The position numbers and the translations under genes are program-made. Positions 20,553 to 50,385 of a DNA stretch of 64,000 nt are shown here, one piece after another. Below the pieces are notes generated by a model. It saw only the letters and a program-made list of their open reading frames with translations. It did no database searches and was not told the origin of the DNA. Source of the DNA: Aquimarina sp. MAR_2010_214 (GTDB lineage: Bacteria; Bacteroidota; Bacteroidia; Flavobacteriales; Flavobacteriaceae); NCBI RefSeq assembly GCF_002846555.1, contig NZ_PJMS01000001.1, positions 3,348,001 to 3,412,000 of the forward strand, given 5' to 3'. How positions within the stretch are numbered: position 1 is the stretch's first letter; the number at the start of each line of letters is the position of its first letter.

Positions 20553-20957
20553 TATTCCTTCTTTTTATAATTGACTAATTCGCTATTTTGAAAATTAAAA
20601 ATCTGAAATTATCACTTTATATATATGAATATCGCGATGATGCTAATGTGAAAAAAACTAAGAACTATAATGCTGATTTATATTTCAAAAATTTTGTTAT
20701 GTGTACATGTAGGAGAGTAAATTATTACTTTTTCGTAGACATTTTATATGTTAATTTTTATCTTTCTCAGTATAAGACCGTTGCTTCACAGTAAGAATAC
20801 AAAGGGTTTTTGAATTCCCAACAGTATCTACTTATGATGAATAGAGACGATTTTTGGATAAATCTATAAGCTATAAATTTGCTCGACACCTTGGGAGTTT
20901 CAATGTTTATAAATGCAAGTTTGGGTAACTTTTTTCTATACTATGTTTTAATGTAAT
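20553..20957. other. Intergenic region at the left edge of the cassette array
   Basis: This 405-bp AT-rich region lies upstream of the megaenzyme gene and should contain its promoter. A small frame at 20588-20794 has no support. The segment TATACTATGTTTTAATG at 20938-20954 resembles the right-hand end of the array spacers and may be the outermost one. Confidence 0.4.
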
Positions 20958-21821
20958 TCAGCTTTTGTTGTAAATAGTTTTTTCTAATTCATACCACCAA
21001 TATTCTGAGCTCAATTCTTCTCTTTTTGATTCAAATAAAGGAGCATTATGTTTGAAGTCATATTTATCAAGAGAATCTTCTTTCGATAAATATTTAGAAA
21101 TGGGTTTAAATTTGTCTGAAACAATCCCGTGAATGCTGTTGTTTTTTATGATGTTACAAAATACCAAAGAATCAATATCTACTCCTTCGATTTTTTTTAT
21201 CGTTTGTAAATCATAAGCATAAACATTGTAGTTGTCGGCAAAAAAGAAAGGCGTAATTCTCTTAAGACTAGAATGAACTCCTTTAACTAACTTACCCTTC
21301 CAATATACTTTTTCATCAGAGGTCGCTATTTTAGAGTTCCAAAGCGATAGTATTTGTTTTGATTTTTCAGAGGGATGTAGCTTCAACCATTCTTGTCTGT
21401 AGGTATTGTCGAAAAATAGTTCTAAATGATTTTCCTTTATAATTTTTCCGCCTGGACCATAATAGTATCTATGTTTGTCTTTTGCATAATTTTTACCTAG
21501 AGGTTCAAAAGTGTCAAAATCAACTTTACCTTTAATAGGCGTTAAAAACATTTTTGTTGAATTACTTTTTTCTATTAGAGAGAAACCATAGAGAGTTTTT
21601 TCATTTCTAAAGAAGGTTTGACTAAGCCATTCACAATCATTAGGATTTACTTCAATCGGTGTATCTCTTCTATTTGATATTACCCAATTCAGCAATTTTC
21701 CATCCTGCTGAAAGTAGTTATCAATCAGATGGTTTTCTCGAATAGAAATCCTACTAATTATTTGATAGTTCATTCCGTAGCCAATATTTCCTTTTGGAAA
21801 AGCATTTTCTGGTAATGTCAT
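20958..21821 (-). CDS. DKNYY-like repeat protein
   Basis: A 287-residue protein with short aromatic repeats of the type DKHRYYYGPGGKIIKE, KVYWKGKLVKGV and FFADNYNVYAYDLQTIKKIE, which resemble the DKNYY family of beta-rich repeat proteins. No signal peptide is seen at the chosen start, although the first residues MTLPENAFPKG may not be the true start. The function of the family is unknown; members often occur with contact-dependent or accessory loci. It is the last gene of the cassette array in transcription order, on the minus strand, and is separated from the next by a palindromic spacer. Confidence 0.6.
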   Translation of the reverse strand: MTLPENAFPKGNIGYGMNYQIISRISIRENHLIDNYFQQDGKLLNWVISNRRDTPIEVNPNDCEWLSQTFFRNEKTLYGFSLIEKSNSTKMFLTPIKGKVDFDTFEPLGKNYAKDKHRYYYGPGGKIIKENHLELFFDNTYRQEWLKLHPSEKSKQILSLWNSKIATSDEKVYWKGKLVKGVHSSLKRITPFFFADNYNVYAYDLQTIKKIEGVDIDSLVFCNIIKNNSIHGIVSDKFKPISKYLSKEDSLDKYDFKHNAPLFESKREELSSEYWWYELEKTIYNKS

Positions 21822-21840
21822 CTCTAATTGTTTATAAAGT

Positions 21841-21944
21841 CTAGTATAAGAAACGTAGGGCAGGGGATAAGCGATACGTTTTGCTAATAAGCACCCACCT
21901 TTCGGTTAAGGATAAAAACCCTGTGTTTTCTTGTATATTACTAG
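21841..21944. repeat. attC-like spacer 1
   Basis: An imperfect inverted repeat with ends CTAGTA and TACTAG. The segment AGTATAAGAAACGTAGGGCA on the left recurs in the spacers at 25063 and 31677 and, less exactly, at 41639. It overlaps the stop codon of the PfpI-family gene. The AAC/GTT core seen in other spacers is not clear here, so this copy is degenerate. Confidence 0.5.
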
Positions 21945-22732
21945 CGATCCGTACTTTTGGTTTTTCTTCTATACTTCATTCCATTTGGAGCTATTGGCCA
22001 ATCTTCTTTCTCATGGAATTCGTATTGTAAAGCTCTTGAAATCATTTGTTTTATTTTCTCTCCACTATGATTGCCTACAATGTATAATGCAGTATCTATT
22101 CCGGAAGTAATTCCAGATGATGTAATAAACTTTTTTTCATCTACAAAACGGACATTTTTAATCAATTCAATTTGTGAATATTGTTTAGAAAAATCGTCTG
22201 CTACAAAATAATGAGTAGTGGCTTTTTTATTATTTAATGCGTTTGTATTTGCTAATAGATAAGAACCTGTACATATTGATACAGTTTTTGTCTTTTCTTT
22301 ATTACTCCAATCCGTTATAAAATTTGTAAATGTATTATTCTCAATTAAAGTATTAATAACCGGCATACTTGCTCCAGGAATTATTAAGTAATTGGCCTCG
22401 GGCATATTGTTAATAGTATAATCAGCCTTTAATTTAATTATATTGTTTTCGGTTCTAATTATTGATGTATCTAATGCAACTGTAAAAATTTCATATTTTC
22501 CTTTAGTCAATTTTCTTGCTTTAGAAAAAACTTCGATAGGCCCTGCAAAATCTTGTAATACTACATTTTGATATATTAATATTGCTATTTTTTGGGTTTC
22601 TATTTCACCTTTAGTGGACTCAGTAATAGAATCCATCATTTTATTATGATTAATTTCTTGAGCAGAACAATCTAAGATGCCTAAACTAAAAGCAAATATG
22701 GAGGAACAGAATGCAATTATTATGTGTTTCAT
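21941..22732 (-). CDS. Exported DJ-1/PfpI family protein
   Basis: A 263-residue protein with an N-terminal signal sequence (residues 1-24, FCSSIFAFSLGILDCSAQE) and a DJ-1/PfpI-type glutamine amidotransferase-like fold: IAILIYQNVVLQDFAGPIEV at the start of the domain and the nucleophile elbow TVSICTGSYLLANT with the expected Cys. Relatives include isonitrile hydratase-like proteins and the sensor half of GlxA-type regulators, but here no AraC helix-turn-helix domain follows. It is probably periplasmic, possibly lipidated at the Cys after LGIL. The substrate is unknown. It is a single-gene cassette on the minus strand. Confidence 0.8.
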   Translation of the reverse strand: MKHIIIAFCSSIFAFSLGILDCSAQEINHNKMMDSITESTKGEIETQKIAILIYQNVVLQDFAGPIEVFSKARKLTKGKYEIFTVALDTSIIRTENNIIKLKADYTINNMPEANYLIIPGASMPVINTLIENNTFTNFITDWSNKEKTKTVSICTGSYLLANTNALNNKKATTHYFVADDFSKQYSQIELIKNVRFVDEKKFITSSGITSGIDTALYIVGNHSGEKIKQMISRALQYEFHEKEDWPIAPNGMKYRRKTKSTDR

Positions 22733-22739
22733 TTAAAAT

Positions 22740-22840
22740 AGAACTCGTTTAATTTATTAAAATCTAGTGCCAGAGAAAATATTAAATAATTATTTGATCT
22801 GGCACTAAATTGCTTTGATTTTATATATAATGTTACTATA
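22740..22840. repeat. attC-like spacer 2 (degenerate)
   Basis: The arms TAGTGCCAGA (22765-22774) and TCTGGCACTA (22798-22807) form a stem, and the right end TATATAATGTTACTATA matches the right end of the spacer at 39731-39909. The left core is degenerate. Confidence 0.4.
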
Positions 22841-22846
22841 TATGTT

Positions 22847-23323
22847 TTATTTCGTTGTCGATCGATTTTTCATCTTAAAAATTAGAACACTTAATAATGC
22901 TCCAATTAAAAAACCAATAAATAAATATGTGCTGAAATTTAGGTTCTGAAAATCCATTGAATTCTGAATTCCGTTTTCAAGATTATATTCCGACAATTTT
23001 TGTAATTGATTATTCAGTTGAAATATTCTTAGTTGCCAACTTAAAATTCCACATCCGAATATTATTCCAAGAGTTGCTATAGTTTGATTTCTAGATTTTA
23101 ATCCCGAAAATTTATTTGAGATTAAATACAAAACAGGAATAACCCCAATTGACAATGTGAATATTAAGTGAGATTTAAATTGCTCACTCATAGTGTAACT
23201 AACAATTTTGATATTTCTTTTGTTAAGTTGAGAGAATGAAATATCGAGAAAACTCCCTTTGATTAAGAATCCGATAACAACTAATACTACTATCATTCCA
23301 ATAGATATCAATATTTTTTTCAT
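22847..23323 (-). CDS. Small membrane protein, unknown
   Basis: The 158-residue protein has about four hydrophobic segments: residues 7-24 (IGMIVVLVVIGFLIKG), 52-66 (LIFTLSIGVIPVLYLI), 80-95 (IATLGIIFGCGILSW) and 130-148 (TYLFIGFLIGALLSVLIF). It ends with a short basic tail KMKNRSTTK. I do not recognise a family, and no catalytic motif is visible. It is a single-gene cassette between two degenerate spacers, on the same strand as its neighbours. Confidence 0.55.
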   Translation of the reverse strand: MKKILISIGMIVVLVVIGFLIKGSFLDISFSQLNKRNIKIVSYTMSEQFKSHLIFTLSIGVIPVLYLISNKFSGLKSRNQTIATLGIIFGCGILSWQLRIFQLNNQLQKLSEYNLENGIQNSMDFQNLNFSTYLFIGFLIGALLSVLIFKMKNRSTTK

Positions 23324-23329
23324 TAATTT

Positions 23330-23427
23330 TTGCTGCTAAGGTCTTGGCTCTGGTTAATATGAGAATTAAAAGTAGTAAACTTTCGATTAAGTACTTAGCC
23401 AAATTTTTTTATTTTGTTTTATTTTTC
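23330..23427. repeat. attC-like spacer 3, left half only
   Basis: Bases 23352-23427 match the left halves of spacers at 33371 and 45681 (GGTTAATATGAGAATTAAAA, then TCGATTAAGTACTTAGCCAA and ATTTTGTTTTA). The right half is missing and the downstream gene stops inside it, so a deletion probably joined the two cassettes. Confidence 0.45.
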
Positions 23428-23621
23428 CTTTTCGCTATTTTCATGCAACTATAATTACAAGCTCCATTCTCCAAATATTCAATTTTATGTTCGGATAGAA
23501 GTCGAACAATTAGTTCTCTTGTTTCTTTTTCATCAAGTCCGAGTTTTTCTCCAAGGTCTATTTCATTCAACTGACCATTGTCTTCAATTAATGTTTTATA
23601 ATATTTTTCTTTATTTTTCAT
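23409..23621 (-). CDS. Small winged-helix-like protein, unknown
   Basis: A 70-residue protein. The segment LNEIDLGEKLGLDEKETREL followed by IVRLLSEHKIEYLENGACNY is the pattern of a small helix-turn-helix with a wing, and the tail KRKNKTK is basic. I do not know a named family. It overlaps the methyltransferase gene by 11 bp, so translational coupling is likely and the two form one two-gene cassette. A regulatory role is inference from the fold alone. Confidence 0.55.
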   Translation of the reverse strand: MKNKEKYYKTLIEDNGQLNEIDLGEKLGLDEKETRELIVRLLSEHKIEYLENGACNYSCMKIAKRKNKTK

Positions 23622-24450
23622 AAGTTGTTTGTTTTTTTACTGCTATCATCATATGAGGGCTAAAAGGTAAAAGATAGCTGTCATTTTCTGTAATCTGTGT
23701 AAGTTCTAATAATGTTTTTTTCTTTTTGTCATTCAACATATTAGTAAAATAATTTTTGTCTAACCAAGCCATTCCTTCAACGGCATAAGTAGTAAGATAA
23801 GTTAATTCTTGGTTTATAAATTCGTCTTTAAGCTGTTCAGGTTTATGATAATATGCTTCAGCTAAAAGCCAAGGGAAATCATCTGGAGGATTGTGTATTC
23901 CATTTGTCAATTCATCTTTACACATTTCAAAAAATGTTCTTTTATGGATGAGTCCATTTAAAAGACCTACCAGAGTGGATGCGGTATAATTGATAGCAAA
24001 ACCCAAAATGATTCCGTTATTTTTTAAAACACGTTTCGCTTCTCGAATACTTAATTCTCTATCTTCTTTTTTTTGAAGATGATATAGGGGGCCGTGCAAA
24101 ATTATTAGGTCAGCAAAATTATTTGGGAATTTTAAACTTCTAGATTCTCCCAAATGAATAGAAAACTTGTTTTTTAGTTTATTGGCTCTGTTTTGCGCTA
24201 TTTTTATATGTTTTGAAACGGGTTCGACTAAATGAACTTGATGTCCTTTTTTTGCAAGCCATTCTGAATATTTCCCTGTTCCACCACCAATGTCAATTAT
24301 TTTTGAAGATTGAGTTGGAATATATTTTTCTATGAGTGATTTGATTCTCTCAAATTCAAAAATACCCATTCCTTTGTTAAGTCTGGTTTCTTCAGATGCT
24401 GTATTATAAAATAGCTCTATATTTCTACTTATTAACTGTTTTTTATTCAT
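23611..24450 (-). CDS. Class I SAM-dependent methyltransferase
   Basis: The 279-residue protein carries the SAM-binding motif I KIIDIGGGTGKYSEWLAKKG, the acidic end of strand 2 (VHLVEP), and the post-motif segment FADLIILHGPLYHLQ, followed by EAKRVLKNNGIILGF. This is a Methyltransf_11/25-type Rossmann enzyme. The acceptor is unknown; the extended C-terminal part (about 180-279) with several aromatic residues may form the substrate lid. It shares a cassette with the small helix-turn-helix protein, overlapping it by 11 bp. Confidence 0.85.
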   Translation of the reverse strand: MNKKQLISRNIELFYNTASEETRLNKGMGIFEFERIKSLIEKYIPTQSSKIIDIGGGTGKYSEWLAKKGHQVHLVEPVSKHIKIAQNRANKLKNKFSIHLGESRSLKFPNNFADLIILHGPLYHLQKKEDRELSIREAKRVLKNNGIILGFAINYTASTLVGLLNGLIHKRTFFEMCKDELTNGIHNPPDDFPWLLAEAYYHKPEQLKDEFINQELTYLTTYAVEGMAWLDKNYFTNMLNDKKKKTLLELTQITENDSYLLPFSPHMMIAVKKQTTYEK

Positions 24451-24696
24451 TTTTCATTCATTATAACATGACCACATTTCGAAATGCAGAATGCATTACA
24501 AAGTGATAAGGCAATCGATTTAAAATCAATTGTTCTGTTTAAGGTTTTGATAAAAAAATTAGATATGATTACCTGTACATTATAAAATCCAAGGATCTTT
24601 ATGTATTAATTTCTCGTTTTATAGAGAACGTCTTTTTAGTAAGACTCAAGTAATATGTTGAATTAGTATAACAGACTACAAAGATATTAATTCTGA

Positions 24697-24945
24697 ATTA
24701 ATTTTTTCTTAGTAGTTGGTTTTGTTTTTTATGGTGTTTTGCAAGACCAATTTGATTTAAAATTCCTTATTTTTTTCTCGGGCATCCCTTTCTTATTGTT
24801 TGTGACAGGAAGTTTCGGTTTGTTGTGGCCGAAAAATAAACCGACTGGAGATGAGGTCTACATTAGTCATGCTTTATTAATAGGAGTTCTTTTTATTATT
24901 CTATTTTTATTCATGTTTGGATTATTTTACCTCGTATTTGTCTAA
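24697..24945 (+). pseudogene. Small membrane protein or 5'-truncated fragment
   Basis: The frame is open from 24697 (after a TGA at 24694) to 24945, but the only starts are ATT-like codons or the TTG at 24739. It encodes two strong hydrophobic segments around SFGLLWPKNKPTGDEVYISH, then VLFIILFLFMFGLFYLVFV. The hydrophobic sequence already begins before the TTG (FFLVVGFVFYGVL), which suggests that the 5' end of a longer membrane protein has been lost. It is one of the few plus-strand frames in the array and runs into a long perfect hairpin. Confidence 0.4.
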
Positions 24946-24994
24946 ACTTCGGAGCATGTTTAGGTGTTTGATTTTTATCAAATTATGTAGATTA

Positions 24995-25050
24995 AAAATG
25001 ATGACTTGATAGAGATAATTTAGCTATTATCTCTATCAAGTCATCATTTT
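24995..25050. terminator. Long perfect hairpin, probable bidirectional terminator
   Basis: A perfect 24-bp stem (24995-25018 with 25027-25050) around the 8-nt loop TTTAGCTA. It ends in TTTT on one side and begins AAAA on the other, so it can act in both directions between the plus-strand membrane frame and the minus-strand esterase gene. The stem is unusually long and perfect for a terminator, and resembles the perfect hairpin in the spacer at 40431. Confidence 0.6.
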
Positions 25051-25062
25051 ATGCTTGCAGGC

Positions 25063-25147
25063 AACATCTTGTATAAGAAATGTAGGGCAGGTGATAAGCG
25101 ATACATTTCGGATGAGTACTAAGCAAAATCTAAATATTTTGCTTTTA
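25063..25147. repeat. attC-like spacer 4, left half
   Basis: AACATCTTGTATAAGAAATG and the following 55 bases are nearly identical to the left half of the spacer at 31677 (the main differences are a T for C at the end of GTATAAGAAAYG and a few changes after AGTACTAAGC). The right half is missing; the esterase gene ends here. Confidence 0.5.
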
Positions 25148-28516: not shown

Positions 28517-28532
28517 AATAATTGTGTTAATA

Positions 28533-28726
28533 GGCTACAACATTCAGTATATGAAACATAGCATACTAGGCTGAGCCAAATTTTTATATTTTGTTTTTAA
28601 CGTATCAATCTTAAAAGCCATACTTCGACAAGCTCAGCAAAGGCTTTACATATTTGACGACTTTACAAATAGGTAATGATCTTTGGATTAAATACTTAAG
28701 TCCCTATTTGTTATGTATAGTGTTCG
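28533..28726. repeat. attC-like spacer 5 (degenerate)
   Basis: The left end GGCTACAACATTCAGTATAT follows the AAC-spacer-TAT pattern of the other sites, the middle GAGCCAAATTTTTATATTTT matches the shared middle of spacers at 33371, 35082 and 43335, and the right end is GTATAGTGTTCG. Confidence 0.4.
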
Positions 28727-28881
28727 CGAATTTTATTTATGAATCAATTCATCTTATAGTTATCCAAAGCAACTAAATTTTAGTTTTTATCATGTTCAAT
28801 ACTATCCAAATAATGTTTGGTTTTATCCAAAATGCTTTTTTAGCCTATAATGAGGAGTTACCTGATAGAAGTGACTGGACA

Positions 28882-29069
28882 AGCTTTACGTTTTAACCTT
28901 GTATTGTTGGTCTCATCAAGGAAAAGATGTTAAGAGGGTTTTAGTAAAGGTGGACAGAAGATTACTGAGTCATATTCATGCTATTATTAGAACAGAAACG
29001 AGAGGTAAGTTAAAATATAAGCCTACAAACTCAACAATGTTTTTGGTACAAAAGTGGACAGCTAAATAA
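28882..29069 (+). pseudogene. Unassigned ORF remnant
   Basis: A frame without a plausible start codon reads LYCWSHQGKDVKRVLVKVDR onward to a stop at 29067-29069. It looks like the tail of a longer coding sequence, and its basic composition would suit a transposase end, but I cannot assign a family. It is the only plus-strand coding-like signal in this gap. Confidence 0.2.
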
Positions 29070-29386
29070 TTTGGGTGAAACCTTATAAAAGTTATCACAT
29101 TGCTATAGTAAGTTGCCTTGTTTGCAATATTTCAACAATATAAAATTATTAGTATGAGATAATTAGAATATCGTATTTTTAACCTATGACTTAGGAAAGG
29201 GCTGTACATAGGACTTGGTATTAGTAAATGTTTTTTCAGATTCCACACAAAAATTCCCTTCATTATTAAATTCAAGATAATAGCTGTTGTAAGGTGCTTT
29301 TTGATAGATTAACTTATAATAACAAATTTGTGTCAAGATAGACTTAAAAAGACTTGTTTGTTGACTCAGTTTTTTATCAGAAGCAG

Positions 29387-30589: not shown

Positions 30590-30668
30590 AATTGATGTGT
30601 CTTTACATTTTATTTAAGACCTCTTTTTTTGTAAAAGGTTACAAAAGTGCTTTTTATTGTTTCTAATG

Positions 30669-30832
30669 TTATGAGTATGTGTCGTAGCAGGACAAAAAGT
30701 TACCTAGCTATGGGCAAGTTCGCGTATATTTTATACTTTATTCAGCTTTAAAATTACTGCGCTATCATAACTATACAAGAACCATTCGATAAATTACTAA
30801 TCTGCTATGAACACATACACTGTTGGCATTAG
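30669..30832. repeat. attC-like spacer 6
   Basis: Resembles the spacer at 38078-38244: GTAGCAGGACAAAAAGTTAC with CTAGCTATG on the left, TGCGCTATCATAACTATACA AGAACCATTCGAT in the middle, and the right end TACACTGTTGGCATTAG. The last 11 bases also end the spacer at 32652-32727. Confidence 0.45.
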
Positions 30833-31676: not shown

Positions 31677-31867
31677 AACATCTTGTATAAGAAACGTAGG
31701 GCAGGTGATAAGCGATACATTTCGGATGAGTACTAAGCCAAGTATAAATATTTTGCTTTATCATTTTTTGTAAACACCAAATTTTATAATTGGCAACTTT
31801 GCAAATAAGCATAAATATTTTGATTAAATCTAAAAGCCCTATGTTTTTTGTACATTGTTATAGTGCG
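31677..31867. repeat. attC-like spacer 7
   Basis: A complete 191-bp spacer. The left arm TTGTATAAGAAACGTAGGGC pairs imperfectly with the right arm GCCCTATGTTTTTTGTACA (31837-31855). The right end is CATTGTTATAGTGCG; its GTTATAG (31857-31863) matches CTATAAC at 32652-32658 beyond the next gene. Confidence 0.7.
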
Positions 31868-32651: not shown

Positions 32652-32727
32652 CTATAACGATCCGTGTATGGTGTCGTAGCTATCACACAGGGTAGCTATC
32701 CACTATATACATCTTTGTTGGCATTAG
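32652..32727. repeat. attC-like spacer 8 (short form)
   Basis: A compact 76-bp spacer: left end CTATAACGATCCGTGTATGG, a loop flanked by GTAGCTATC and GTAGCTATCC, and right end CACTATATACATCTTTGTTGGCATTAG (last 27 bases). The arms CCRTGTATGGTG and CACTATATACAT pair imperfectly. Confidence 0.65.
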
Positions 32728-33370: not shown

Positions 33371-33567
33371 TGTGGTAACGTCTCGCTATGGTTAGTACGG
33401 GTATTAAAAGTAGTGAATTTTCGATTGAGCACTTAGCTAAAACTTTTTATTTTGTTTTACTTTTTTGTTCTAAAGCCAAATCAAAAAGACTTGGTGGTGC
33501 CTATAAATAGTACTGAACTTTCGTAAATCACCGAATGCTCTATTTGCTATATACCATGTTGTAGGGC
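33371..33567. repeat. attC-like spacer 9
   Basis: Left end TGGTAACGTCTCGCTATGG, middle with AGCACTTAGCTAAAACTTTT and TATTTTGTTTTAC, right end CTATATACCATGTTGTAGGGC. Its GTTGTAGGGC (33558-33567) matches GCCCTATAAC at 35082-35091 at 9 of 10 positions, across the serine hydrolase gene. Confidence 0.72.
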
Positions 33568-35081: not shown

Positions 35082-35277
35082 GCCCTATAACGTTTAACTA
35101 TGCGTAGTGCGGAGGCAGAAAATCACTAGTTTTCGAGCTAGCACTTAGCCAAAGTTTATGTTTTGTTTTTATATTTTCTAAAATACTAAATTTAAATCTT
35201 TGGCGACAAACGAAATGAGCGATTACTTTTCGATTAAACCAAAACTCCGCATTATCGCATAAATGTTGTTACCCAAC
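35082..35277. repeat. attC-like spacer 10
   Basis: A complete 196-bp spacer. The left end GCCCTATAACGTTTAACTAT GCGTAGTGCGGAG pairs with the right end CTCCGCATTATCGCATAAAT, with the outer cores TATAACG and GTTACCCAAC. GTTACCCAAC (35268-35277) matches GTTGGGTAAC at 36177-36186 at 10 of 10 positions, across the next two genes. Confidence 0.78.
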
Positions 35278-36176: not shown

Positions 36177-36311
36177 GTTGGGTAACGTTTCGTATAACCG
36201 TCAGTTAGGGGTTTATATGCGTTAATTTTAGATTAAGTACAGGCTTTAGCAAATACACGTGGATTCAGACGTAGTCTAATCCGCCATAATTGCGTTTATA
36301 CATTGTTACCC
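36177..36311. repeat. attC-like spacer 11
   Basis: A clean 135-bp example: left end GGGTAACGTTTCGTATAACCG and right end CGTTTATACATTGTTACCC. The outer 7 bp GGGTAAC/GTTACCC pair perfectly, followed by a mismatched block (GTTTC against AAT), then a second arm GTATAA against TTATAC. This is the box-spacer-box layout of attC sites, with unequal strands. Confidence 0.82.
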
Positions 36312-38044: not shown

Positions 38045-38077
38045 TATCTTTTTAATTTGTATTGATACTTTTAATGT

Positions 38078-38244
38078 CTTGTCCTAAAATATGGCTACAG
38101 GACAAAATGTTGTCTAACTATCAACTTTATCTGCGCATTGATTGCTATTTTTTTCATTTTGCGAGCATTGCGCTAACATAAATATACAAGAACCAATCGA
38201 TTAATTCCTAATCAGCTATGATCGCATATATAGTGTTGTACACC
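38078..38244. repeat. attC-like spacer 12
   Basis: Contains CAGGACAAAATGTTGTCTAA CTATC, then GCGCTAACATAAATATACAA GAACCAATCGAT, and ends GCATATATAGTGTTGTACACC. It is the partner of the spacer at 30669. Its GTTGTACACC (38235-38244) matches GGTGTACAAC at 39731-39740 at 10 of 10 positions, across four genes. Confidence 0.6.
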
Positions 38245-38760: not shown

Positions 38761-38770
38761 GTTGTACACC
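38761..38770. repeat. Remnant cassette boundary
   Basis: GTTGTACACC here repeats the right end of the spacer at 38235-38244 exactly, including the following CGTTTT. It lies in the 16-bp gap between two genes, so this is a trimmed spacer of which only the right core remains. Confidence 0.45.
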
Positions 38771-39716: not shown

Positions 39717-39730
39717 GTTCTTTGTCAAAT

Positions 39731-39909
39731 GGTGTACAACGCCAAATATATGAATCGGTGCAAGGCAAATACACCTATACCAATCGATTTATCCGCGTAT
39801 TTTTATTTCTTGTTTAATTTATAAAAATATAGCGCCTTTGCAAAAGAAAATAACCTTTCGGTCTAGCACTAAAACTTGCTCTGATTTCATATATAATGTT
39901 ACCTATAGT
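39731..39909. repeat. attC-like spacer 13
   Basis: Left end GGTGTACAACGCCAAATATA TGAATCGGTG, middle CCTTTCGGTCTAGCACTAAA, right end TTCATATATAATGTTACCTATAG. The left core is the perfect inverted match of the boundaries at 38235 and 38761. Confidence 0.65.
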
Positions 39910-40424
39910 ATTTTTAGTTTTTCAGCCAATTCGTTTTTCCATTTCTCAAGGTCGTTATATTTTTCGTTGTACTCGTCTACTGGAATATTTAATAACTTAT
40001 ATAAAGTTTCGGATTTGTTAAAACCTAATTTCTCTCCAATTTCTTTAAATTTTGTTATGTCAAGTTCGTCCTCAATATCATCATTAAAATACTCAAACAT
40101 AATATCTAAAAAAAGTAAGTTCCAGTTAGTTCCATAATTGTCATATACTTCATCGTTTTCTAATTCAAAATGAAAGATTTTTTGAATAGAATCATTGTAT
40201 CCAAATACTCGGAAAGATTCCCCTTCGTCATAAATTGGAATAATATTTAGTCCATTCAATATTTTGTAATTAGAAATTGTTGGGAAATAGAAATAAGCTC
40301 CGTCCACGTTCTCAACACGATATTTTAGTTCGTCTATTCTTCCAATATTCTCAACGAAATCTTTATTAGCTCCAAATCTTATTAATTCAGATTCTCTTTC
40401 TTCTATTGGAATTAGTTTTTTCAT
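39903..40424 (-). CDS. SMI1/KNR4-like cassette protein (tentative)
   Basis: The frame is open further upstream, but those codons come from a hairpin repeat. The ATG at 40424 gives 173 residues starting MKKLIPIEERESELIRFGAN. The middle, YKILNGLNIIPIYDEGESFR and NWNLLFLDIMFEYF, resembles SMI1/KNR4-type immunity proteins in order of elements, though the key residues are not conclusive. These proteins often protect against cognate toxins, and no toxin gene is beside it. It is a single-gene cassette between spacers 13 and 14. Confidence 0.6.
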   Translation of the reverse strand: MKKLIPIEERESELIRFGANKDFVENIGRIDELKYRVENVDGAYFYFPTISNYKILNGLNIIPIYDEGESFRVFGYNDSIQKIFHFELENDEVYDNYGTNWNLLFLDIMFEYFNDDIEDELDITKFKEIGEKLGFNKSETLYKLLNIPVDEYNEKYNDLEKWKNELAEKLKIL

Positions 40425-40430
40425 ATTGCT

Positions 40431-40499
40431 GGGAACGTCTCTTGTATATTGCATATGCTTCCTTCGGGAAGCATATGCAATATACAAATTGTTATGTGC
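40431..40499. repeat. attC-like spacer 14: minimal site with perfect 21-bp hairpin
   Basis: The shortest complete site, 69 bp. Left end GGGAACGTCTC, then a perfect 21-bp stem (40442-40462 with 40467-40487) closed by a TTCG tetraloop, then right end AATTGTTATGTGC. The outer ends AACG and TTGTT and the arms TTGTATA/TATACAA match the pattern of the longer spacers, so the hairpin replaces their long variable middle. Confidence 0.8.
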
Positions 40500-40502
40500 T
40501 TT

Positions 40503-41597: not shown

Positions 41598-41629
41598 ATT
41601 CTCTATTAATTCTGATTTTTTTTGAGCGT

Positions 41630-41759
41630 GCACACAACGTTTAGTATAAGAATAGTAAGGGATTGAAAGGCACTTACTTTTCGGTTTGGCGGACTTTGTT
41701 AATCTGCACTAACTTTCGGTTTTGCACAAAACCCTTATCATTTTCACATTGTTGTGTGG
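41630..41759. repeat. attC-like spacer 15
   Basis: A clean 130-bp example. Left end GCACACAACGTTTAGTATAA GAATAGTAAGGG and right end CCCTTATCATTTTCACATTG TTGTGTGG. The outer 8 bp CACACAAC/GTTGTGTG pair perfectly, then a mismatched block, then AGTAAGGG with CCCTTAT. Confidence 0.83.
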
Positions 41760-41765
41760 CGTATT

Positions 41766-42647: not shown

Positions 42648-42658
42648 TAATTACTAAT

Positions 42659-42776
42659 ATTTTGTTTTATTTTTTCATTTTAAAGCCAAATCAAAAGATT
42701 TGGTGGACTTGGTTTAAAGTGCTAAACTTTGGGTTAAGCAACAAAACCCGTATTAATTATAGCCATTGTTGTGTGT
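42659..42776. repeat. attC-like spacer 16, right half
   Basis: About 110 bases here are nearly identical to 45763-45876 (AAAGCCAAATCAAAAGATTT, GGTGGACTTGGTTTAAAGTG, TTGGGTTAAGCAACAAAACC). It ends CATTGTTGTGTGT. The left half with the AACG end is missing. GTTGTGTGT (42768-42776) matches ACACACAAC at 43335-43343 at 9 of 9 positions. Confidence 0.68.
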
Positions 42777-42786
42777 TCGTACTTTT

Positions 42787-43311: not shown

Positions 43312-43334
43312 TCAGTTCCAGTTTTTTTGGTATG

Positions 43335-43532
43335 ACACACAACGACCCGGCTATGCGTAGTGTGGGATTTGAAAAGCGGAGTTTTCAAATCTGCACGTAG
43401 CCAAGAGTTTATATTTTGTTTTTAATTTATTCACTTTAAACACCAAATTAAAGTATTGGCGGACTTCATTAATCGCGCTGACCTTTCGTTTAGTAGATAA
43501 CCCGCATTACGTATAGGCATTGTTGTAAAACG
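43335..43532. repeat. attC-like spacer 17
   Basis: A complete 198-bp spacer: left end ACACACAACGACCCGGCTAT GCGTAGTGTGGGA, middle CACGTAGCCAAGAGTTTATA TTTTG, right end CCCGCATTACGTATAGGCAT TGTTGTAAAAC. The arms TGCGTAGTGTGGG and CCCGCATTACGTA pair imperfectly. Confidence 0.78.
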
Positions 43533-43535
43533 TTT

Positions 43536-44393: not shown

Positions 44394-44406
44394 TGTTCGT
44401 TAAGAT

Positions 44407-44591
44407 ACATAGTTTACACAAGTTAAAGATTAGGTGTTTACACTAAGTTAGTTTCTAATCTTGTTGCTTCTTTCTTAGGTTTCTTTGATCAAAGAAACCT
44501 AAAAATACATTTCTATAATAGACTTTCCAAATAACCACATATCTTTCGATTAAGTCCTAAAGCCCTATGTTTTTTATACATTGTTACCAAA
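44407..44591. repeat. Spacer 18: second-type repeat plus attC-like right end
   Basis: Bases 44407-44464 are copy B of the repeat at 37114. A 26-bp loopless palindrome follows at 44476-44501 (TAGGTTTCTTTGA and its complement). The right end CCCTATGTTTTTTATACATT GTTACCAAA matches the end of the spacer at 31677. GTTACCAAA (44583-44591) matches TTTGGTAAC at 45681-45689 at 9 of 9 positions. Confidence 0.6.
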
Positions 44592-44621
44592 TGTATATAT
44601 AATTATTATTCGATTTATTAG

Positions 44622-44777: not shown

Positions 44778-44785
44778 ATGGTCTA

Positions 44786-45658
44786 TTATTTGGGCCTGAG
44801 CGTCTCAATAATCTGCGCATCCACCCAAAATATATCCCCATTACCTGAGCTTACCTCTCTATTAAAGAAAATATATTTTCCGTCTGGCGTTACGTATGCT
44901 GAAGCCTCCCTAACGCTTGTGTTTATTTTATTCCCTAAATTAATGGCAGCACCCCATGAACCGTCTTGCTGTCGAAAACTGATATACAGGTCAATATCAC
45001 CATACCCGCTATCTCTTTCACCATCCCAAATAATATAGGATTCATCTGGCGCTATGAATGGGTGGGCATTGTATTTTCCGGTGTTAATCTCTTTGCCGAG
45101 CAGTCTTGGTTCTTCGCGTTTGCCGTCTTTGAGTGTTGATATGCGGATTACATCGTTGCTCTTATAATCGTCAAAAACATAGGTGCCCTTGACGGATGCC
45201 GACAGGCGCATAATACCCCAGTCTTCCCGGTCAAACATGGGCCCAAGGCTTTTTACTTCTGACCATCCAATCTCGGTGCGTTCTATATATTTACTGCCCA
45301 AATGCATACACTTACCATCAGGAGCTAAGAGGGGGCGACCCACCCTGGGTCCCACCACAGACTCGCGCCATTGGTTATTTTCGGATTTAAAAAGAACTAA
45401 CGACCATTTTCCATTTTTGACGTCTTTCCTAGTAAAATAAAACTCTTTCATGTCGGGTGTGAAGAAAGCGTTATGGTCACGATGCTCTGTCGAAACAAAA
45501 CCAGGGGCGAAAACTTCAGGGGTTATACCTGGCGGCTTTTGCCCGAGATAGGGACCTTCTAAGCGTGGAAAACTAGAAGCGTTTTCAACGTTTTCTTGAG
45601 CAAAGACAGTATTTAGCGATATAACGATTGTCAGTATTAATAATTTAGTAGCTTTCAT
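44786..45658 (-). CDS. Exported PD40/WD40-like beta-propeller protein
   Basis: The 290-residue protein has a signal peptide (ATKLLILTIVISLNTVFAQE) and repeated PD40-type blades: FFTPDMKEFYFTRKDVKNGK, PLLAPDGKCMHLGSKYIERT, PFIAPDESYIIWDGERDSGY and AYVTPDGKYIFFNREVSSGN, each with the xDGxx(I/F)(Y/F)(F/W) pattern. It is a periplasmic propeller of TolB-like type with unknown ligand. Its base composition is unlike its neighbours: the line 45181-45240 counts 35 of 60 G or C, against about a third elsewhere. The cassette is bounded by GTTACCAAA and TTTGGTAAC. Confidence 0.85.
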   Translation of the reverse strand: MKATKLLILTIVISLNTVFAQENVENASSFPRLEGPYLGQKPPGITPEVFAPGFVSTEHRDHNAFFTPDMKEFYFTRKDVKNGKWSLVLFKSENNQWRESVVGPRVGRPLLAPDGKCMHLGSKYIERTEIGWSEVKSLGPMFDREDWGIMRLSASVKGTYVFDDYKSNDVIRISTLKDGKREEPRLLGKEINTGKYNAHPFIAPDESYIIWDGERDSGYGDIDLYISFRQQDGSWGAAINLGNKINTSVREASAYVTPDGKYIFFNREVSSGNGDIFWVDAQIIETLRPK

Positions 45659-45680
45659 ATTCTCTTCTTTTGTTAATATG

Positions 45681-45880
45681 TTTGGTAACGGCTCCGGCTA
45701 TGGTTAGTATGGGATTAAAAAGCAATTAATTTCCGATTAAGCACTTAGCCAAAACTTTTTATTTTGTTTTATTTTTTCATTTTAAAGCCAAATCAAAAGA
45801 TTTGGTGGACTTGGTTTAAAGTGCTAAACTTTGGGTTAAGCAACAAAACCCGTATTAACTATAACCATTGTGGCTATTGC
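45681..45880. repeat. attC-like spacer 19
   Basis: Left end TTTGGTAACGGCTCCGGCTA TGG, middle as in the spacers at 33371 and 42659, right end AACTATAACCATTGTGGCTA, in which the usual GTT has become GTG. The right half is nearly identical to 42659-42768. Confidence 0.7.
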
Positions 45881-46064
45881 ACAACTTACTAAAAAAGATT
45901 ATCAAGAAAAACTCTTTACTACTTTTTGTTTAAGTGATAGAGTAAGTAAGAATGACTTTTTATGAACTCTTTAGATTCGATATAAAGGTCTCTTGAAATA
46001 GTAAATCAAATATGATATAGTAAAGAGGCTTAAAAATGATCGTTTTGTAATAAATTATGGGCTT
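45881..46064. other. Gene-free cassette-like stretch
   Basis: About 180 bp between two boundaries contains no ORF of note. It might be the remnant of a lost cassette. Confidence 0.35.
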
Positions 46065-46091
46065 GTGTAACGATTGCCGGTGTTAGCAAAT
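46065..46091. repeat. attC-like boundary 20 (very short)
   Basis: GTGTAACGATTGCCGGTGTT AGCAAAT carries the AACG and GTT cores 11 bp apart, with no long middle. GTTAGCAAAT (46082-46091) matches ATTTGCTAAC at 48751-48760 at 10 of 10 positions, across three genes. Confidence 0.5.
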
Positions 46092-46190
46092 GTAATTATT
46101 CAGTCAATTATTCGGTCATTTCAGAGTTTAAAATGGTTGTTTCAGCTAGTTTCATTTTTTAGAACTTCATTGTACAACTAGGTTTGTAAT

Positions 46191-47168
46191 ATGAAAAAAA
46201 TAAAATTCTTGATACTTGGACTGCTGGTTAGCTTTATATTGATTCAATTTATAAAACCAGATAAATTTGAAACTTATACTGCTATCAACGAAAATAGTGA
46301 ATACAATAAATTATTAACTTCAGTACCTGATAGCATTGAACTTATAATTAAAAATTCATGTTATGATTGTCATTCAAATCAAACTAACCTTCAATGGTTT
46401 GATAAAATCATACCTATTAACTTTGTTGTAGATTCACATATAAAAGAAGGACGTAAAGCGTTAAATTTTTCAAACTTTGACAGCTTGAACTCCAAACAAG
46501 TAAGCGCAAAACTCTTTTACTCACTTAACAAAGCTTTAAGTGGCGAAATGCCTCTTCCGTCATATACATTAGCTCACTCAAAATCCAAGATTACCAATAA
46601 AGAATTACAACAAATTAAATCATATTTATTGTCGATTTCTGAGCGGAAACTTACTGATAGTATACAGATTGTTAAAAACTCAATAGAATATTATCAACTT
46701 TTAGACAAAAAGATAAAACAACAAGTAAAACCAACTCTTAACGGTATTGAGTATATTCCAGACTATCAGGAATGGAAAGCAGTAAGTACTACAGACCGCT
46801 TTGACAATCGTTCTATGAGAGTTATTTATGCAAATGATGTAGCTGTAAAAGCTATTGAGACAGGTAAAATTAATCCTTGGCCAAATGGGACTGTTTTTGC
46901 AAAAGCAGCTTGGGCTCAACAAATAGATAATAATGAAATAATTCGTTTGGGAAATTTTATACAGGTTGAATATATGATTAAAGATACTGAAAAATATGCT
47001 AGTACTGACAGTTGGGGTTGGGCAAGATGGCGTGGCGATGAGCTAAAGCCTTATGGTAGTGATGCTCTTTTTGTAAATGAATGCATTACCTGTCATAAAC
47101 CAGTAGAAAAGTATGACTATGTATTTACTGCTCCACTTAATCTTAATGTTTTAAATTCTTCAAAATGA
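46191..47168 (+). CDS. Haem-binding protein with cytochrome P460 domain
   Basis: The 325-residue protein has an N-terminal membrane anchor or signal (FLILGLLVSFILIQFI). The first domain contains NSCYDCHSNQTNLQWFDKII with a CxxCH haem site typical of the haem-binding DUF found with cytochromes. The second domain (about 195-320) matches the cytochrome P460 fold, with IPDYQEWKAVSTTDRFDNRS and ending in ECITCHKPVEKYDYVFT, a second CxxCH. It is probably periplasmic. It is on the plus strand, opposite to most array genes, and overlaps the next gene by 4 bp. Confidence 0.85.
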   Translation: MKKIKFLILGLLVSFILIQFIKPDKFETYTAINENSEYNKLLTSVPDSIELIIKNSCYDCHSNQTNLQWFDKIIPINFVVDSHIKEGRKALNFSNFDSLNSKQVSAKLFYSLNKALSGEMPLPSYTLAHSKSKITNKELQQIKSYLLSISERKLTDSIQIVKNSIEYYQLLDKKIKQQVKPTLNGIEYIPDYQEWKAVSTTDRFDNRSMRVIYANDVAVKAIETGKINPWPNGTVFAKAAWAQQIDNNEIIRLGNFIQVEYMIKDTEKYASTDSWGWARWRGDELKPYGSDALFVNECITCHKPVEKYDYVFTAPLNLNVLNSSK

Positions 47169-47656
47169 AAAATATTCTAAATGAGAATGTATTAATAATT
47201 AGTTTCGGACTCTTGTTTTTACTTTTGGGTTGCAATCAATCTTCTGAAAATAACTTTAATGAGTCTGCCTCAATAGGTAAAACTGATAGTTTACTTGTTA
47301 ACCCTTTGCTAGAGAAAGTAATTACCGTTACAATCAATCCTAAGAGAAACACTATGAGTACTTTGTATGGAAATGATATTGCTTGGAATTACATTTCATC
47401 ACATAGCGATTCAAACTATCCTAAAGGTTCAAAACTATATGAGGTAACTTGGTTTCAACAATCTGATAATGTTTGGTTTGGTGCAAATATTCCTGAAAAA
47501 ATTCTTAAGGTGGAATGTGTTATTTATACAGGTTTAGAAACATCGTCGTATGAGCTTTATAAAGGATATCCTTTAAAAAGAGTAGTAAATATTGATAAAA
47601 AATATCAGGAAAGAATTAAGGAAATAGCTTCGCAACGATTTGCAGTAGTACCTTAA
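47165..47656 (+). CDS. Lipoprotein, unknown
   Basis: The 163-residue protein has a lipoprotein signal LLFLLLGCNQSSENN. Its mature domain contains TINPKRNTMSTLYGNDIAWN and LYEVTWFQQSDNVWFGANIP, a pattern reminiscent of the P460 fold of its neighbour (YEVTWxQxxDxxWFG), although haem cysteines are missing. It overlaps the haem protein gene by 4 bp and is certainly cotranscribed with it. A shared role in periplasmic electron transfer or redox sensing is inference. Its end lies 5 bp from that of the converging LytTR gene. Confidence 0.75.
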   Translation: MKNILNENVLIISFGLLFLLLGCNQSSENNFNESASIGKTDSLLVNPLLEKVITVTINPKRNTMSTLYGNDIAWNYISSHSDSNYPKGSKLYEVTWFQQSDNVWFGANIPEKILKVECVIYTGLETSSYELYKGYPLKRVVNIDKKYQERIKEIASQRFAVVP

Positions 47657-47661
47657 TAATA

Positions 47662-48726
47662 TTAATTTTTGCCTGCCCATTTTTTAAACTCTGTGATTTT
47701 AGCTTTACTAATGATAATTGTTATTGGTGAAATAGGCTTGGTTTCTACTTTTAGTTGAGCATTTCCATATTTTTCTATTTTATTTATGGCTTTTGCCGAT
47801 ATAATAACCTGTCTTGAGGCTCTATAAAATGTTTTTGGATTCAAAGATTTAAATAGTTCATCTAATGTTAAATTAATGGAAGATTTTTCATTGTTATGCT
47901 CGACAATGTTAGTGATTTTATTTTCTGTATAGATAATGGCAATATTATCAATATAAACAGGTGTGAGTTTGATTCCTTTATCCGCTAAGAATCTGTCATT
48001 AATTGATTTGTCACTATTCGTAGTTTTTGAAATGTTTTTATTTAATTTTTTTAACTCATTAAAGTATTTTGCACTCGTCTCTCTGTTTAGTTCGGTGATT
48101 TTCTCTAAACTTTTAGAGTTTATAAATTGAAGAAAAAAATATATCAACAGAGAACTACCTAGCCATACCAGAATAAATATAAATGACAGTTTCTCTTTTA
48201 GATTGTCTAATACGTCTTTAAACTTCAAAATATTAGAATGGGAAGCTACAATCCAATCCGTATTTTTAACGGGACTTAGATATACTATCTCGGTATAATT
48301 TTCAGTTTCTCTTAAACCTCCAATAGATACTTTCTGTATGATAGATTCTTTGAAATTTTTTTCAATTTTTTGATTGGGTATTGATGTTAATATCGAGTTG
48401 TTTTTAGTCAGTGTTTTTCCAATTCTTTCTCTGTCAGGGTGGCATATTTCTTTTCCTGTATCATCAAACATACAAATGAAGCTATTTTCTATTGGACTAT
48501 TTTCAATACTTCTTTGAAGTTCATTTTTTACTTCTTCTTTTGAATAACCTGATATTAATTTTTCACTTAATAAACTTGAAATTATGTCCGCCTGAATTTT
48601 TGAATTTTCTATTTGTTTATTTATTAAGTCTGCTGTAGCTGTATTGTAAATATAATTAAAACTCAAGTAGTAAATTAAACCTAAAATAAGTAGGGTAGAA
48701 AGTAATATTATCTTGTTAAACTTCAT
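47662..48726 (-). CDS. Membrane sensor with LytTR DNA-binding domain
   Basis: The 354-residue protein has a transmembrane helix at about 9-27 (ILGLIYYLSFNYIYN region), an extracytoplasmic cache-like domain (about 30-180), a second transmembrane helix (FILVWLGSSLLIYFFL), a coiled segment, and a C-terminal LytTR domain (INLTLDELFKSLNPKTFYRA SRQVIIS and GNAQLKVETKPISPITIIIS). It is therefore a one-component membrane-bound regulator without receiver domain. It lies convergent to the haem-protein pair inside the same cassette, so it may sense the conditions for that pair; regulation of them is only inference. The cassette ends at TTTGCTAAC (48752-48760). Confidence 0.85.
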   Translation of the reverse strand: MKFNKIILLSTLLILGLIYYLSFNYIYNTATADLINKQIENSKIQADIISSLLSEKLISGYSKEEVKNELQRSIENSPIENSFICMFDDTGKEICHPDRERIGKTLTKNNSILTSIPNQKIEKNFKESIIQKVSIGGLRETENYTEIVYLSPVKNTDWIVASHSNILKFKDVLDNLKEKLSFIFILVWLGSSLLIYFFLQFINSKSLEKITELNRETSAKYFNELKKLNKNISKTTNSDKSINDRFLADKGIKLTPVYIDNIAIIYTENKITNIVEHNNEKSSINLTLDELFKSLNPKTFYRASRQVIISAKAINKIEKYGNAQLKVETKPISPITIIISKAKITEFKKWAGKN

Positions 48727-48750
48727 TAATGGATTAGTGTTGGTTTTTAT

Positions 48751-48835
48751 ATTTGCTAACGTTAAATGTAAACGTCTGTGCGATGAAGAAAGTCAGCGGC
48801 TTTCGGAATTAGCACAAGGTATAGGTGTTGGCAAC
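48751..48835. repeat. attC-like spacer 21
   Basis: A compact 85-bp site. Left end ATTTGCTAACGTTAAATGTA AACGTCTGTGCG, right end TAGCACAAGGTATAGGTGTT GGCAAC. The arms GTCTGTGC and GCACAAGGT pair imperfectly. GTTGGCAAC (48827-48835) matches GTTGCCAAC at 50377-50385 at 9 of 9 positions, across the split lipoprotein gene. Confidence 0.75.
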
Positions 48836-49055
48836 TGGCTTTTACTGATTTGAACTCTGCTCAACTATTTTCCATGTTTCCAAAATTTGACTCAATCTTG
48901 ATTTAAATTCTGTGGAATCTTTACTTTTTTCTATGATAGAAAAAATATCATGCAATTCTCCACGTAGCATAGGATATTTATCTGATACTTTTCTAAAATC
49001 CAGCCAGGCCTTAATATGTTTATAAAATGCTGATTTAAATTCTTCTGGGCAATTA

Positions 49056-49063
49056 GAATAATC
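49056..49063. repeat. Target site duplication, left copy
   Basis: GAATAATC directly left of the IS end; the identical copy lies at 50117-50124. The 8-bp size is that of IS1595-family elements. Confidence 0.9.
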
Positions 49064-50116
49064 GGCTAAGTTCTAAAAAGCATATTATTTACTACTATGT
49101 TTTTAAATTCCATCCAGGCAGTATTGGAAGCAAAGGCTATAGCTGCTACGGTTGCCATTTTACTGGTTGAATTTTTTATTTTTTCTAAGACTAAAAACCA
49201 ATTCAGATAATTCTGAAGGTATTTTGTTGCCACTCCATTGAAGGGCTCCATAAATTTCCTTAGACGCATATCCATATTATTCACATTTTGTACGTGATAT
49301 ATTTTGTCAACAGCTCTTTGACCCTTCGAAGCATTAAATTTTTTGTGTGCTACCTTCTTGTCTTTTGCAAATGCAGTATAGCTTCTGTGACTGTCGCTAC
49401 AAAGGGTTTCTACTTTAGCCAACTTCCCTTGTAATATAGTCTCCAAGTCACTTTTACTAATGCGACCTCTGGTAGCTACTTTGAAATCTTTGTTCCCTGA
49501 TCGGTCACAACTGGCTATCACAGCTACTTTTTCATTACTGAGACCAGCTTTACTTGCCTTTGCGCCACGTTTTCTAGCAGGACGATCCAAATTTCGATTC
49601 CCTTTTTCAGAGTAAGCAAAGAAAAGATCATCACTCTCTAGGATTCCTTGGAATTCATCCACACTTACGCTCCCAAAGGAGACAAGTAATTTGTGCCTCC
49701 AATCAAAAGAAGTCTGAATAGAAATCCCTGTTTCTTTGGCACTCTTGCGAATACTATATCCAGAGAGTAAACAGAATAAATAACGATTAACTTTGTCTTT
49801 CTTCTTGAGGTTGTACCAGAACTTACCGGTAGTTTCACTAAAGTTTTTATGACAAGTATTACAAACATAGCGCTGTACTCCTTTGAGCTTACCATTAGCC
49901 TTAATTTTATTGCACTTACAATGAGGACAGCTTATGGCTTTACTCTGATTGCTATCAATCAGGGCTGAACCCTCAGTAGAGATCTCCAATAATGTGGAAA
50001 CAATTTCTGATTGAACCAAAGCCGATGAACTAATGAAAAAATCTCTAAAATCTTCTGGTATCATTTCTCCGTTTTTATAAAGTAAAGATAAAACATATTC
50101 TAATTAGAACTTAGCC
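49064..50116 (-). mobile_element. IS1595-family insertion sequence, 1053 bp
   Basis: The element starts and ends with a 13-bp perfect terminal inverted repeat, GGCTAAGTTCTAA (49064-49076) and TTAGAACTTAGCC (50104-50116), with further partial matches inside. It is flanked by the 8-bp duplication GAATAATC, carries one transposase gene, and begins GGC as other members of the family do. It interrupts a lipoprotein gene. The perfect duplication and intact transposase indicate a recent insertion. Confidence 0.9.
49066..50064 (-). CDS. IS1595-family transposase (ISXO2-like)
   Basis: The 332-residue DDE-type transposase has an N-terminal zinc ribbon with two CxxC pairs (SCPHCKCNKIKANGK and VCNTCHKNFS), a helix-turn-helix-like SIRKSAKETGISIQTSFDWR, and a catalytic core with ILESDDLFFAYSEKG, CSDSHRSYTAF and HVQNVNNMDMRLRKFMEPFN followed by YLQNYLNWFLVL. 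The residue order fits the ISXO2-like domain. The gene is intact, and its stop codon TAG lies inside the left terminal repeat. It transposes the element by cut-and-paste and generates 8-bp target duplications. Confidence 0.92.
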   Translation of the reverse strand: MIPEDFRDFFISSSALVQSEIVSTLLEISTEGSALIDSNQSKAISCPHCKCNKIKANGKLKGVQRYVCNTCHKNFSETTGKFWYNLKKKDKVNRYLFCLLSGYSIRKSAKETGISIQTSFDWRHKLLVSFGSVSVDEFQGILESDDLFFAYSEKGNRNLDRPARKRGAKASKAGLSNEKVAVIASCDRSGNKDFKVATRGRISKSDLETILQGKLAKVETLCSDSHRSYTAFAKDKKVAHKKFNASKGQRAVDKIYHVQNVNNMDMRLRKFMEPFNGVATKYLQNYLNWFLVLEKIKNSTSKMATVAAIAFASNTAWMEFKNIVVNNMLFRT

Positions 50117-50124
50117 GAATAATC
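50117..50124. repeat. Target site duplication, right copy
   Basis: GAATAATC directly right of the IS end, identical to 49056-49063. Confidence 0.9.
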
Positions 50125-50376
50125 TAATGACTTCAAGTTCTTGGAGTAATTATTAATTGCTTCACTTACTGAAGTCTTTTCAGAAGCGTGATTTCTGATG
50201 TCACCAAAGATGCTATCTTTTTCAAATATATACTTTACACAACTGACACTTTTTCTTTCCATATTTGAAGAGGAACTATTTTCTTTTTTATTCGACCCAT
50301 TACATGCCAAAAGTAAAAGTGATAAAAATAGGATTATAGGTTTTACCATGATTTTATTAAATTGATAATCTAGCTT

Positions 50377-50385
50377 GTTGCCAAC
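50377..50385. repeat. Outer cassette boundary (right edge of array)
   Basis: GTTGCCAAC, 28 bp upstream of the split lipoprotein start, is the perfect inverted match of GTTGGCAAC at 48827. It marks the last recognisable cassette end before the hut operon; no further spacer follows. Confidence 0.5.

Follow-up and report, generated by a model that had tools for sequence, protein, structure and literature searches.

A stretch of DNA from Aquimarina sp. MAR_2010_214 raises the question of whether a long row of mostly unrelated genes, set apart by palindromic spacers, can be a gene cassette array when no integrase stands beside it, and which enzyme would then serve it. The window, i.e., the whole 64,000-nucleotide stretch that was analysed (G000:C1:3348001-3412000 in a 5.98-Mb single-contig genome), carries this row on the minus strand at 20938..50385. 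The original prediction was of an array of divergent integron type, or else of a different system that follows this logic, with its recombinase elsewhere. Follow-up analysis supports this view, as a recombinase, an attI-like site and the same type of spacer sites occur together twice in the genome. The window very probably holds a sedentary array of cassettes that belongs to an integron-type system, and modules with a recombinase that lacks the IntI-specific insertion, and is best taken as non-IntI, are found elsewhere in the genome. No integrase was detected in the window by tblastn, as had been expected.

The genome displays 34 Phage_integrase matches. The search for an associated tyrosine recombinase that had been suggested led to one 375-amino-acid (aa) protein with the best integron-integrase-family scores among these matches; it is present in two copies, at G000:C1:4096550-4097674 (-) and 4913394-4914518 (+). 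Both modules (4.10 and 4.91 Mb) show the same order: a divergent gene encoding a 122-aa Cys-rich protein, the 375-aa tyrosine recombinase, an attI-like palindrome and cassettes, which are codirectional and carry the site type of the window. The palindrome AATAGCAATTGCTATTACAACATTGTT lies directly behind the integrase stop codon, and the cassette row starts at its GTT. A 1648-bp block that comprises the 122-aa gene, the integrase and attI is common to the two modules (93.4%) and stops within ∼20 bases past the GTT; beyond this point the modules differ. The first genes are a C5-methylase and an MvaI/BcnI-type restriction gene in one array and a MORN-repeat gene in the other. The 122-aa protein belongs to no family and is found divergent beside the integrase in 34/50 loci.

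The closest named matches of the 375-aa recombinase are from Aquimarina. The catalytic domain is present (PF00589, 138.5 bits), and R234, R326, H349 and Y358, which we take to be the catalytic residues, are conserved. The protein consists of a XerA/IntI-like core with ∼100 extra N-terminal residues. As its structure model has a predicted template modelling score (pTM) of 0.51, only parts of the model were used; a lead from these is that the N-terminal domain may be HARP (HARP/XPB damage-recognition fold). The 122-aa gene beside the integrase can be seen, for example, at L009 1216-2804 and in relatives. An upstream region common to many loci displays repeated half-sites like ATTCGAAT or TTATACG, perhaps an operator. 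Further attC-like sites are distant from both integrase copies (loci L068, L069 and L071-L075, with six in L071 at 2.68 Mb), and thus the genome has several arrays.

The predicted palindromic spacers are present in the window, where 15 with two ends were extracted; several more retain a single end, and some are truncated or decayed, with decay greater than in integrase-adjacent arrays. In an alignment of 10 well-kept sites (six from the window, four from the other arrays of the genome), pairing occupies 81.8% of cells, with covariation scored at 0.457 vs 0.125 in shuffles (0/500 reach 0.457) and at most 0.167 with slid partners; structure is retained where sequence is not. These ten sites had been chosen by eye for complementary arms, and end-blind tests were therefore added. 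Pairing also reveals a strand asymmetry. With A.C and G.T scored alike, 90 chain sites contain 1402 Watson-Crick cells, 182 A.C, 9 G.T and 47 others, A.C being most frequent at the 12th pair (63/90) and next at the 7th (36/90). Since A.C on the gene strand is G.T on its complement, it is the complementary 'bottom' strand that forms the better fold, a bias also seen in attC. Fold energies put the bottom strand ahead in 11 of the 15 two-ended window sites, by a margin that is sometimes tiny. One bulge, the maximum permitted in scoring, betters the fit in 52/90 sites (35 left, 17 right). In classical attC, extrahelical bases are described as marking the strand (excerpt of PMC4792948). As a bulge helps in this fraction of sites, the wobbles look like an additional or different strand mark. 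The integron core consensus is RYYYAAC/GTTRRRY; RYYYAAC fits 12/93 cassette ends, in agreement with the earlier observation that it is not matched, and GTTRRRY fits 14/93.

Covariance model R1 had its structure out of register and was left unused. Model R2, from which site middles were left out, matches only sites up to ∼145 nt, and a hairpin scanner was written for this reason. Its scoring favours A.C over G.T, except in the 90-site strand count above, and it is noisy at a loose threshold. On ten true IntI loci it displayed no clear classical array, so that it is not a positive control for classical attC and permits no site-by-site comparison. At strict settings it recovers six of the listed window sites, with extra window matches that are intragenic (39084-38963), outside the array (16286) and, in one case, on the plus strand. 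Strict matches number 2 in 239 kb of arbitrary stretches vs 27 in 199 kb around arrays. The sites are thus not spread between core genes in the manner of repetitive extragenic palindromic (REP) sequences, a distribution that would have spoken against the cassette interpretation.

In integrons, the bases after the GTT at the cassette start pair with those before the AAC at its end; start and end would be complementary because both derive from one site in the circle. An end-blind test, with sites found by the scanner without cassette ends, was applied to 22 loci of the genus (261 kb). The sites number 141 along the integrase direction and 0 against it. Among 119 consecutive end pairs belonging to the same cassette, 58 are perfect over 7 bases, 37 have one mismatch and 24 two or more. 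At most one mismatch in 7 is therefore seen in 95/119 own pairs vs 1.8% of 14042 foreign pairs, and the two ends of the same site agree to this degree in 4/141. A null for the chain walk, with foreign cassette words placed inside arrays, was uninformative (119/366 'found') as arrays hold many similar end words, and the end-blind test replaced it. In the window, with sites listed by eye, the ten cassettes of which both ends can be read show a mean of 1.9 mismatches in 7; the mean is 4.75 when ends are paired otherwise (155 pairings, permutation p 2e-5). Individual values of 3, 4 and 5 mismatches occur among the ten. Cassettes are mostly single-gene units in one orientation. Of 215 cassettes, 165 have their longest open reading frame in the cassette sense and 9 in antisense, and 41 lack a frame of 50 aa. 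Cassette pairs in common between loci at the DNA level are 4 among these 215, so that mobility rests on locus comparison.

The window locus was compared in eight genomes of the genus; the sampled genomes number one per species, and many are drafts that break at arrays. The array is flanked on one side by a gene whose product combines AMP-binding and aminotransferase domains (16803-20552), on the other by histidine-utilisation genes, which start with an amidohydrolase (50938-52320) taken to be HutI. The same genes in the same order in related strains would have spoken against cassettes; one genome is empty at the locus and four carry mostly other cassettes. In the empty one (G019), the flank genes 1657-15857 and HutI are adjacent, and ∼60 bp replaces 34.4 kb. 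G026, G002, G001 and G004 have arrays there, with no integrase in the fetched stretches, and G029 (L210) and G031 (L222) have other DNA without a strict site. Homology with G002 extends from HutI to 50382 and ends there, a different first cassette being next. One cassette is in common with G026 and one gene region with G001. The G026 cassette (39728..40436, minus strand) is 90.8% identical over 710 columns; homology starts at the GTT at 40436 and stops ten bases beyond the next GTT, and in G026 this cassette stands first after an attI-like site.

The attI-like site of the window array is an imperfect palindrome, ATATCCAATTGGGTATAT then TTAATTGTT (50383..50409, minus strand), and cassettes start at its GTT (50385-50383). 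The array end originally placed at 50385 is the G of this GTT. Behind the stop codon of integrases of other species, the same place holds palindromes of other sequence (GTTACCATGGTAAC, GTGTACCAGTACAC, ACACACATTAATGTGTGT and, in Aequorivita sinensis, GGATATAAACTCCCTATGGGAGTTTATCCAATTGTT), mostly followed by a form of ATTGTT (TTGTT or similar). A palindrome score of at least 8 is found at 26/48 integrase loci vs 2/480 random windows and 28/159 stretches after other open frames. Sites of the window type (at most two mismatches) number 12 in 7/46 genus genomes, and a reversed control pattern gives 0. Remnants of the C-terminal part of the integrase are just upstream in 5 of these 12 dispersed loci, and in 6 a cassette with matching ends follows within 1.5 kb. 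A remnant was looked for at the window site, without success. The preferred reading of the window is that an integron-type array has lost its integrase and retained attI and cassettes. In the same genome, an attI-like site at 5866730-5866756 (L235) has integrase remnants just upstream and is followed by a cassette with nearly matching ends.

Integrase matches were detected in 37/52 sampled genomes of the genus, some partial or broken. The integrase is the starting point of a cassette chain in 16 of the 22 genus loci, with 93 cassettes in all. Loci from further genera of the order have a chain in 15/20 cases, and in these 20 loci 117 strict sites lie along the integrase direction and 1 against. 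The recombinase family at E 1e-80 is present in 55/246 sampled genomes of the order, 13 having the full-length close type. Of 80 named loci fetched, 33 were examined and 9 have a chain, including Winogradskyella ursingii (4), Flavobacteriaceae S0862 (6), Aequorivita sinensis (5), Flavobacterium aciduliphilum (3) and Aquiflexum (2).

Several observations count against an integron-type system of this kind. Among the six chainless genus loci, two have less than 80 bp of room, one (L089) is without attI, and three with more than 6 kb of room (L090, L097, L098) show no cassette beside the integrase. The first cassette of L096 was taken from the wrong GTT, and that of L113 probably likewise; the L130 chain is probably due to chance, and single members of L113 and L134 (its second cassette) are doubtful. 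Random GTTs in control stretches yield a false site in 8/600. The attI palindrome of the window is unlike that of the two integrases of its own genome, and a chain walk from it finds nothing. The evidence comes from sequence throughout, and recombination itself is argued from it.

A mechanism can be proposed on the integron pattern. Recombination at GTT between two attC-like sites would release the cassettes as circles. The bottom strand of such a site would fold into a hairpin, which the recombinase would join to a double-stranded attI or to another attC, so that new cassettes would enter next to attI. The 375-aa protein would be the enzyme, and it would act in trans on the window array; its role, the crossover base and the single-strand pathway are all inferred. 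The module, the common site type, the cassette-specific complementary ends, the strand asymmetry, the one orientation and the variable content can be read directly from the DNA, as can one cassette with GTT-matching boundaries between species.

The kind of system can be weighed from the protein and its sites. At somewhat less than an even chance, this is a second, independently evolved kind of integron, in which a Bacteroidota Xer-type recombinase would act on folded single-stranded sites without the I2 insertion of IntI. The recombinase would use a different N-terminal domain, which may be a junction binder of HARP/XPB-like type; the bottom strand would be marked by G.T wobbles along a long stem, attI would be palindromic, and a small partner protein would be encoded divergently. 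A possibility held with slightly less than even confidence is that of an integron in the strict sense, the 375-aa protein representing a deep or reduced IntI branch that lost or never gained the IntI-specific insertion. The attI, the attC-like hairpins, the bottom-strand bias and the cassette logic match integrons, and the protein barely passes NF040815 (XerA_Arch; 'tyrosine recombinase/integron integrase'; 220.1 vs a cutoff of 220). It fails TIGR02249 (187.1 vs a cutoff of 265 bits), for which ten true IntIs score 431-495, and it has 11 residues at the insertion (I2, or patch) where IntI4 has 56. The extra N-terminal domain and the sparse GTTRRRY fits also argue against an IntI branch. In a 56-row tree the ten IntIs are monophyletic (100/100) and separate from the patchless rows, though deep nodes are weak (88/48, 87/37). 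A careful tree omitted two long rows, and in a quick tree the patchless rows are not one group. The approximately unbiased (AU) test rejects neither one clade of IntI and patchless proteins (p 0.218) nor a single clade of patchless proteins (p 0.211). A TIGR02249 search of 246 genomes of the order at E 1e-60 gave no match; controls gave no signal either, so that this null is not evidence that a true IntI is absent.

It is improbable that another recombinase of the genome (XerC/XerD or another tyrosine recombinase) serves the cassettes with the 375-aa protein as a passenger, even with so many Phage_integrase matches to choose from and no integrase beside the window array: an attI-like site and first cassette lie directly behind the 375-aa gene in many genomes, and several dispersed attI-like sites carry remnants of this gene. 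That there is no cassette system, the spacers being repeats of the REP or terminator kind or the units being small transposons with inverted ends, is hard to credit. The units do have inverted ends, and the palindromic spacers have middle stretches in common; the end words, however, vary by unit and match within the cassette rather than within the site, the units have no transposase in common, few sites occur outside arrays, and arrays begin at attI beside the recombinase. Sites between core genes genome-wide and the same gene order in relatives were both looked for and not seen.

With an integron-type cassette array as the preferred reading, comparison with known systems becomes of interest. 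Integrons (IntI, attI, attC and clusters of attC sites lacking integron integrases, CALIN) are alike in the tyrosine recombinase, the adjoining attI, cassettes that point one way and mostly have no known function, hairpin sites with an AAC/GTT core, the bottom-strand bias and cassette-specific complementary ends. Unlike integrons, the present system has no IntI-specific insertion, an extra N-terminal domain, mostly unmatched GTTRRRY, long wobble stems, a palindromic attI directly behind the integrase, an integrase codirectional with its cassettes and a 122-aa partner. XerA functions in dimer resolution and is not known to act on cassettes. Archaeal XerA and simple Xer proteins are the best sequence matches among solved structures (4a8e, 5hxy) and the best Foldseek matches; the solved XerA proteins are without the N-terminal part of the recombinase. 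XerA is listed in an Xer subgroup (excerpt of PMC8138268), and the terms CALIN and In0 follow part of PMC9024848. Chromosomal integrons of Spirochaetota (Treponema type) have an integrase in 'reverse orientation' (excerpt of PMC9668308), read as the codirectional layout seen here; they differ in that their integrases are IntIs by the published definition, and were compared by description only.

Bacteroidota are listed among integron-bearing phyla (parts of PMC8618304 and PMC9668308), and the consulted portion of a large survey gives a single complete integron in Bacteroidetes proper, that of Salinibacter ruber (PMC9024848). Integron surveys require the IntI-specific domain, according to a section of PMC9668308, and a system without it would presumably be missed. 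The I2 insertion is reported as not identified elsewhere in an excerpt of PMC4792948. A literature search of open-licence papers, preprints not covered, returned no description of such a system. If it works as proposed, there would be a large unscreened pool of mobile cassettes, and the need for I2 in IntI would become testable, as strand-selective recombination seems to be I2-free here.

The accessory genes of the window fill 20958-50349 and bear out the description of an array of mostly minus-strand genes. Nearly all lie on this strand, as claimed, with two exceptions on the plus strand (46191-47656). Gene families include methyltransferases, beta-lactamase-fold and metallo-hydrolase-fold proteins, CAAX-protease-like, leucine-rich repeat (LRR), DUF695 and DUF7079 proteins, and many genes are without a Pfam match. 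An Rfam scan of the window gave nothing at gathering score; six low scores are taken as chance matches. A tRNA search of the window found none.

Features of the array are on the minus strand. The first cassette carries an ISXO2/IS1595-type transposase (49066..50064), a second genome copy of which (L074) is 99.9% identical over 1058 bp; an attC-like site closes it at 48758..48829 (start GTTGGCAACA, end AGTTGCCAAC, read directly, 1 mismatch in 7). The second cassette (start GTTAGCAAAT, end ATTTGCTAAC, 0 mismatches in 7) is closed by a site of which the left end (AAC, 46082..46084) can be read, the rest being decayed. Extracted spacers include the attC-like sites s1 (45687..45872, left core CAC rather than AAC), s9 (38064..38237, right end decayed) and the decayed s18 (28526..28724) and s22 (22730..22848). 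Those with a scanner test in addition are s3 (43341..43524), the short s6 (40434..40493), s7 (39738..39900) and s15 (31677..31859); those with an end pairing test are s13 (33377..33560) and s16 (30659..30824, right end decayed). Model R2 detects s5 (41636..41753, 33 bits) and s11 (36184..36307, its top window match at 49 bits). The short s14 (32656..32719) and the decayed s23 (21824..21945) are further extracted sites. Left ends only remain of s2 (44583..44585) and s4 (42768..42770), which pair with the right ends of s1 and s3, respectively, with one mismatch (in 7 for s2), and of s8 (38761..38763), a perfect 7-base match to the right end of s7. The left end of s12 (35089..35270) likewise matches the right end of s11 perfectly over 7 bases.

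Mobile elements are also found in the sites themselves. In both modules of this genome an IS110-family element (L017 4164-5642; L018 18030-19508) lies in the left arm of an attC-like site, the two being 99.5% identical, and a relic is found at window 28847-29214 (73-81% identical). In classical integrons, ISKpn4 and ISPst6 target one attC end (excerpt of PMC11187229). The IS1111-attC insertion sequences are thus a known parallel; the element described here, assigned to the IS110 family, is a parasite of the system and not the system.

Another repeat (TTAGAAACTAA.TTAGTGTAAAC..CTAATCTTTAACTTGTGTAAAC) has two minus-strand copies in the window (∼44460-44400 and 37165-37110), and both stand at places that lack an attC-like right half. 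A reading frame of 32 aa (MNHFYSIFGLNFKSIVNFLRELPKASSYAIRK) with an upstream palindrome is found at window 16321-16419 and at L223 17960-18058; conservation in G019 amounts to 83% identity of the DNA across 286 bp. Tandem pairs of tyrosine recombinase genes (∼300-330 aa) are numerous in G000:C1, e.g., 5142864/5143718 and 3134495/3135400. Some of these pairs recur 6.6-6.7 kb apart, and they resemble a mobile element present in many copies that encodes two recombinases.

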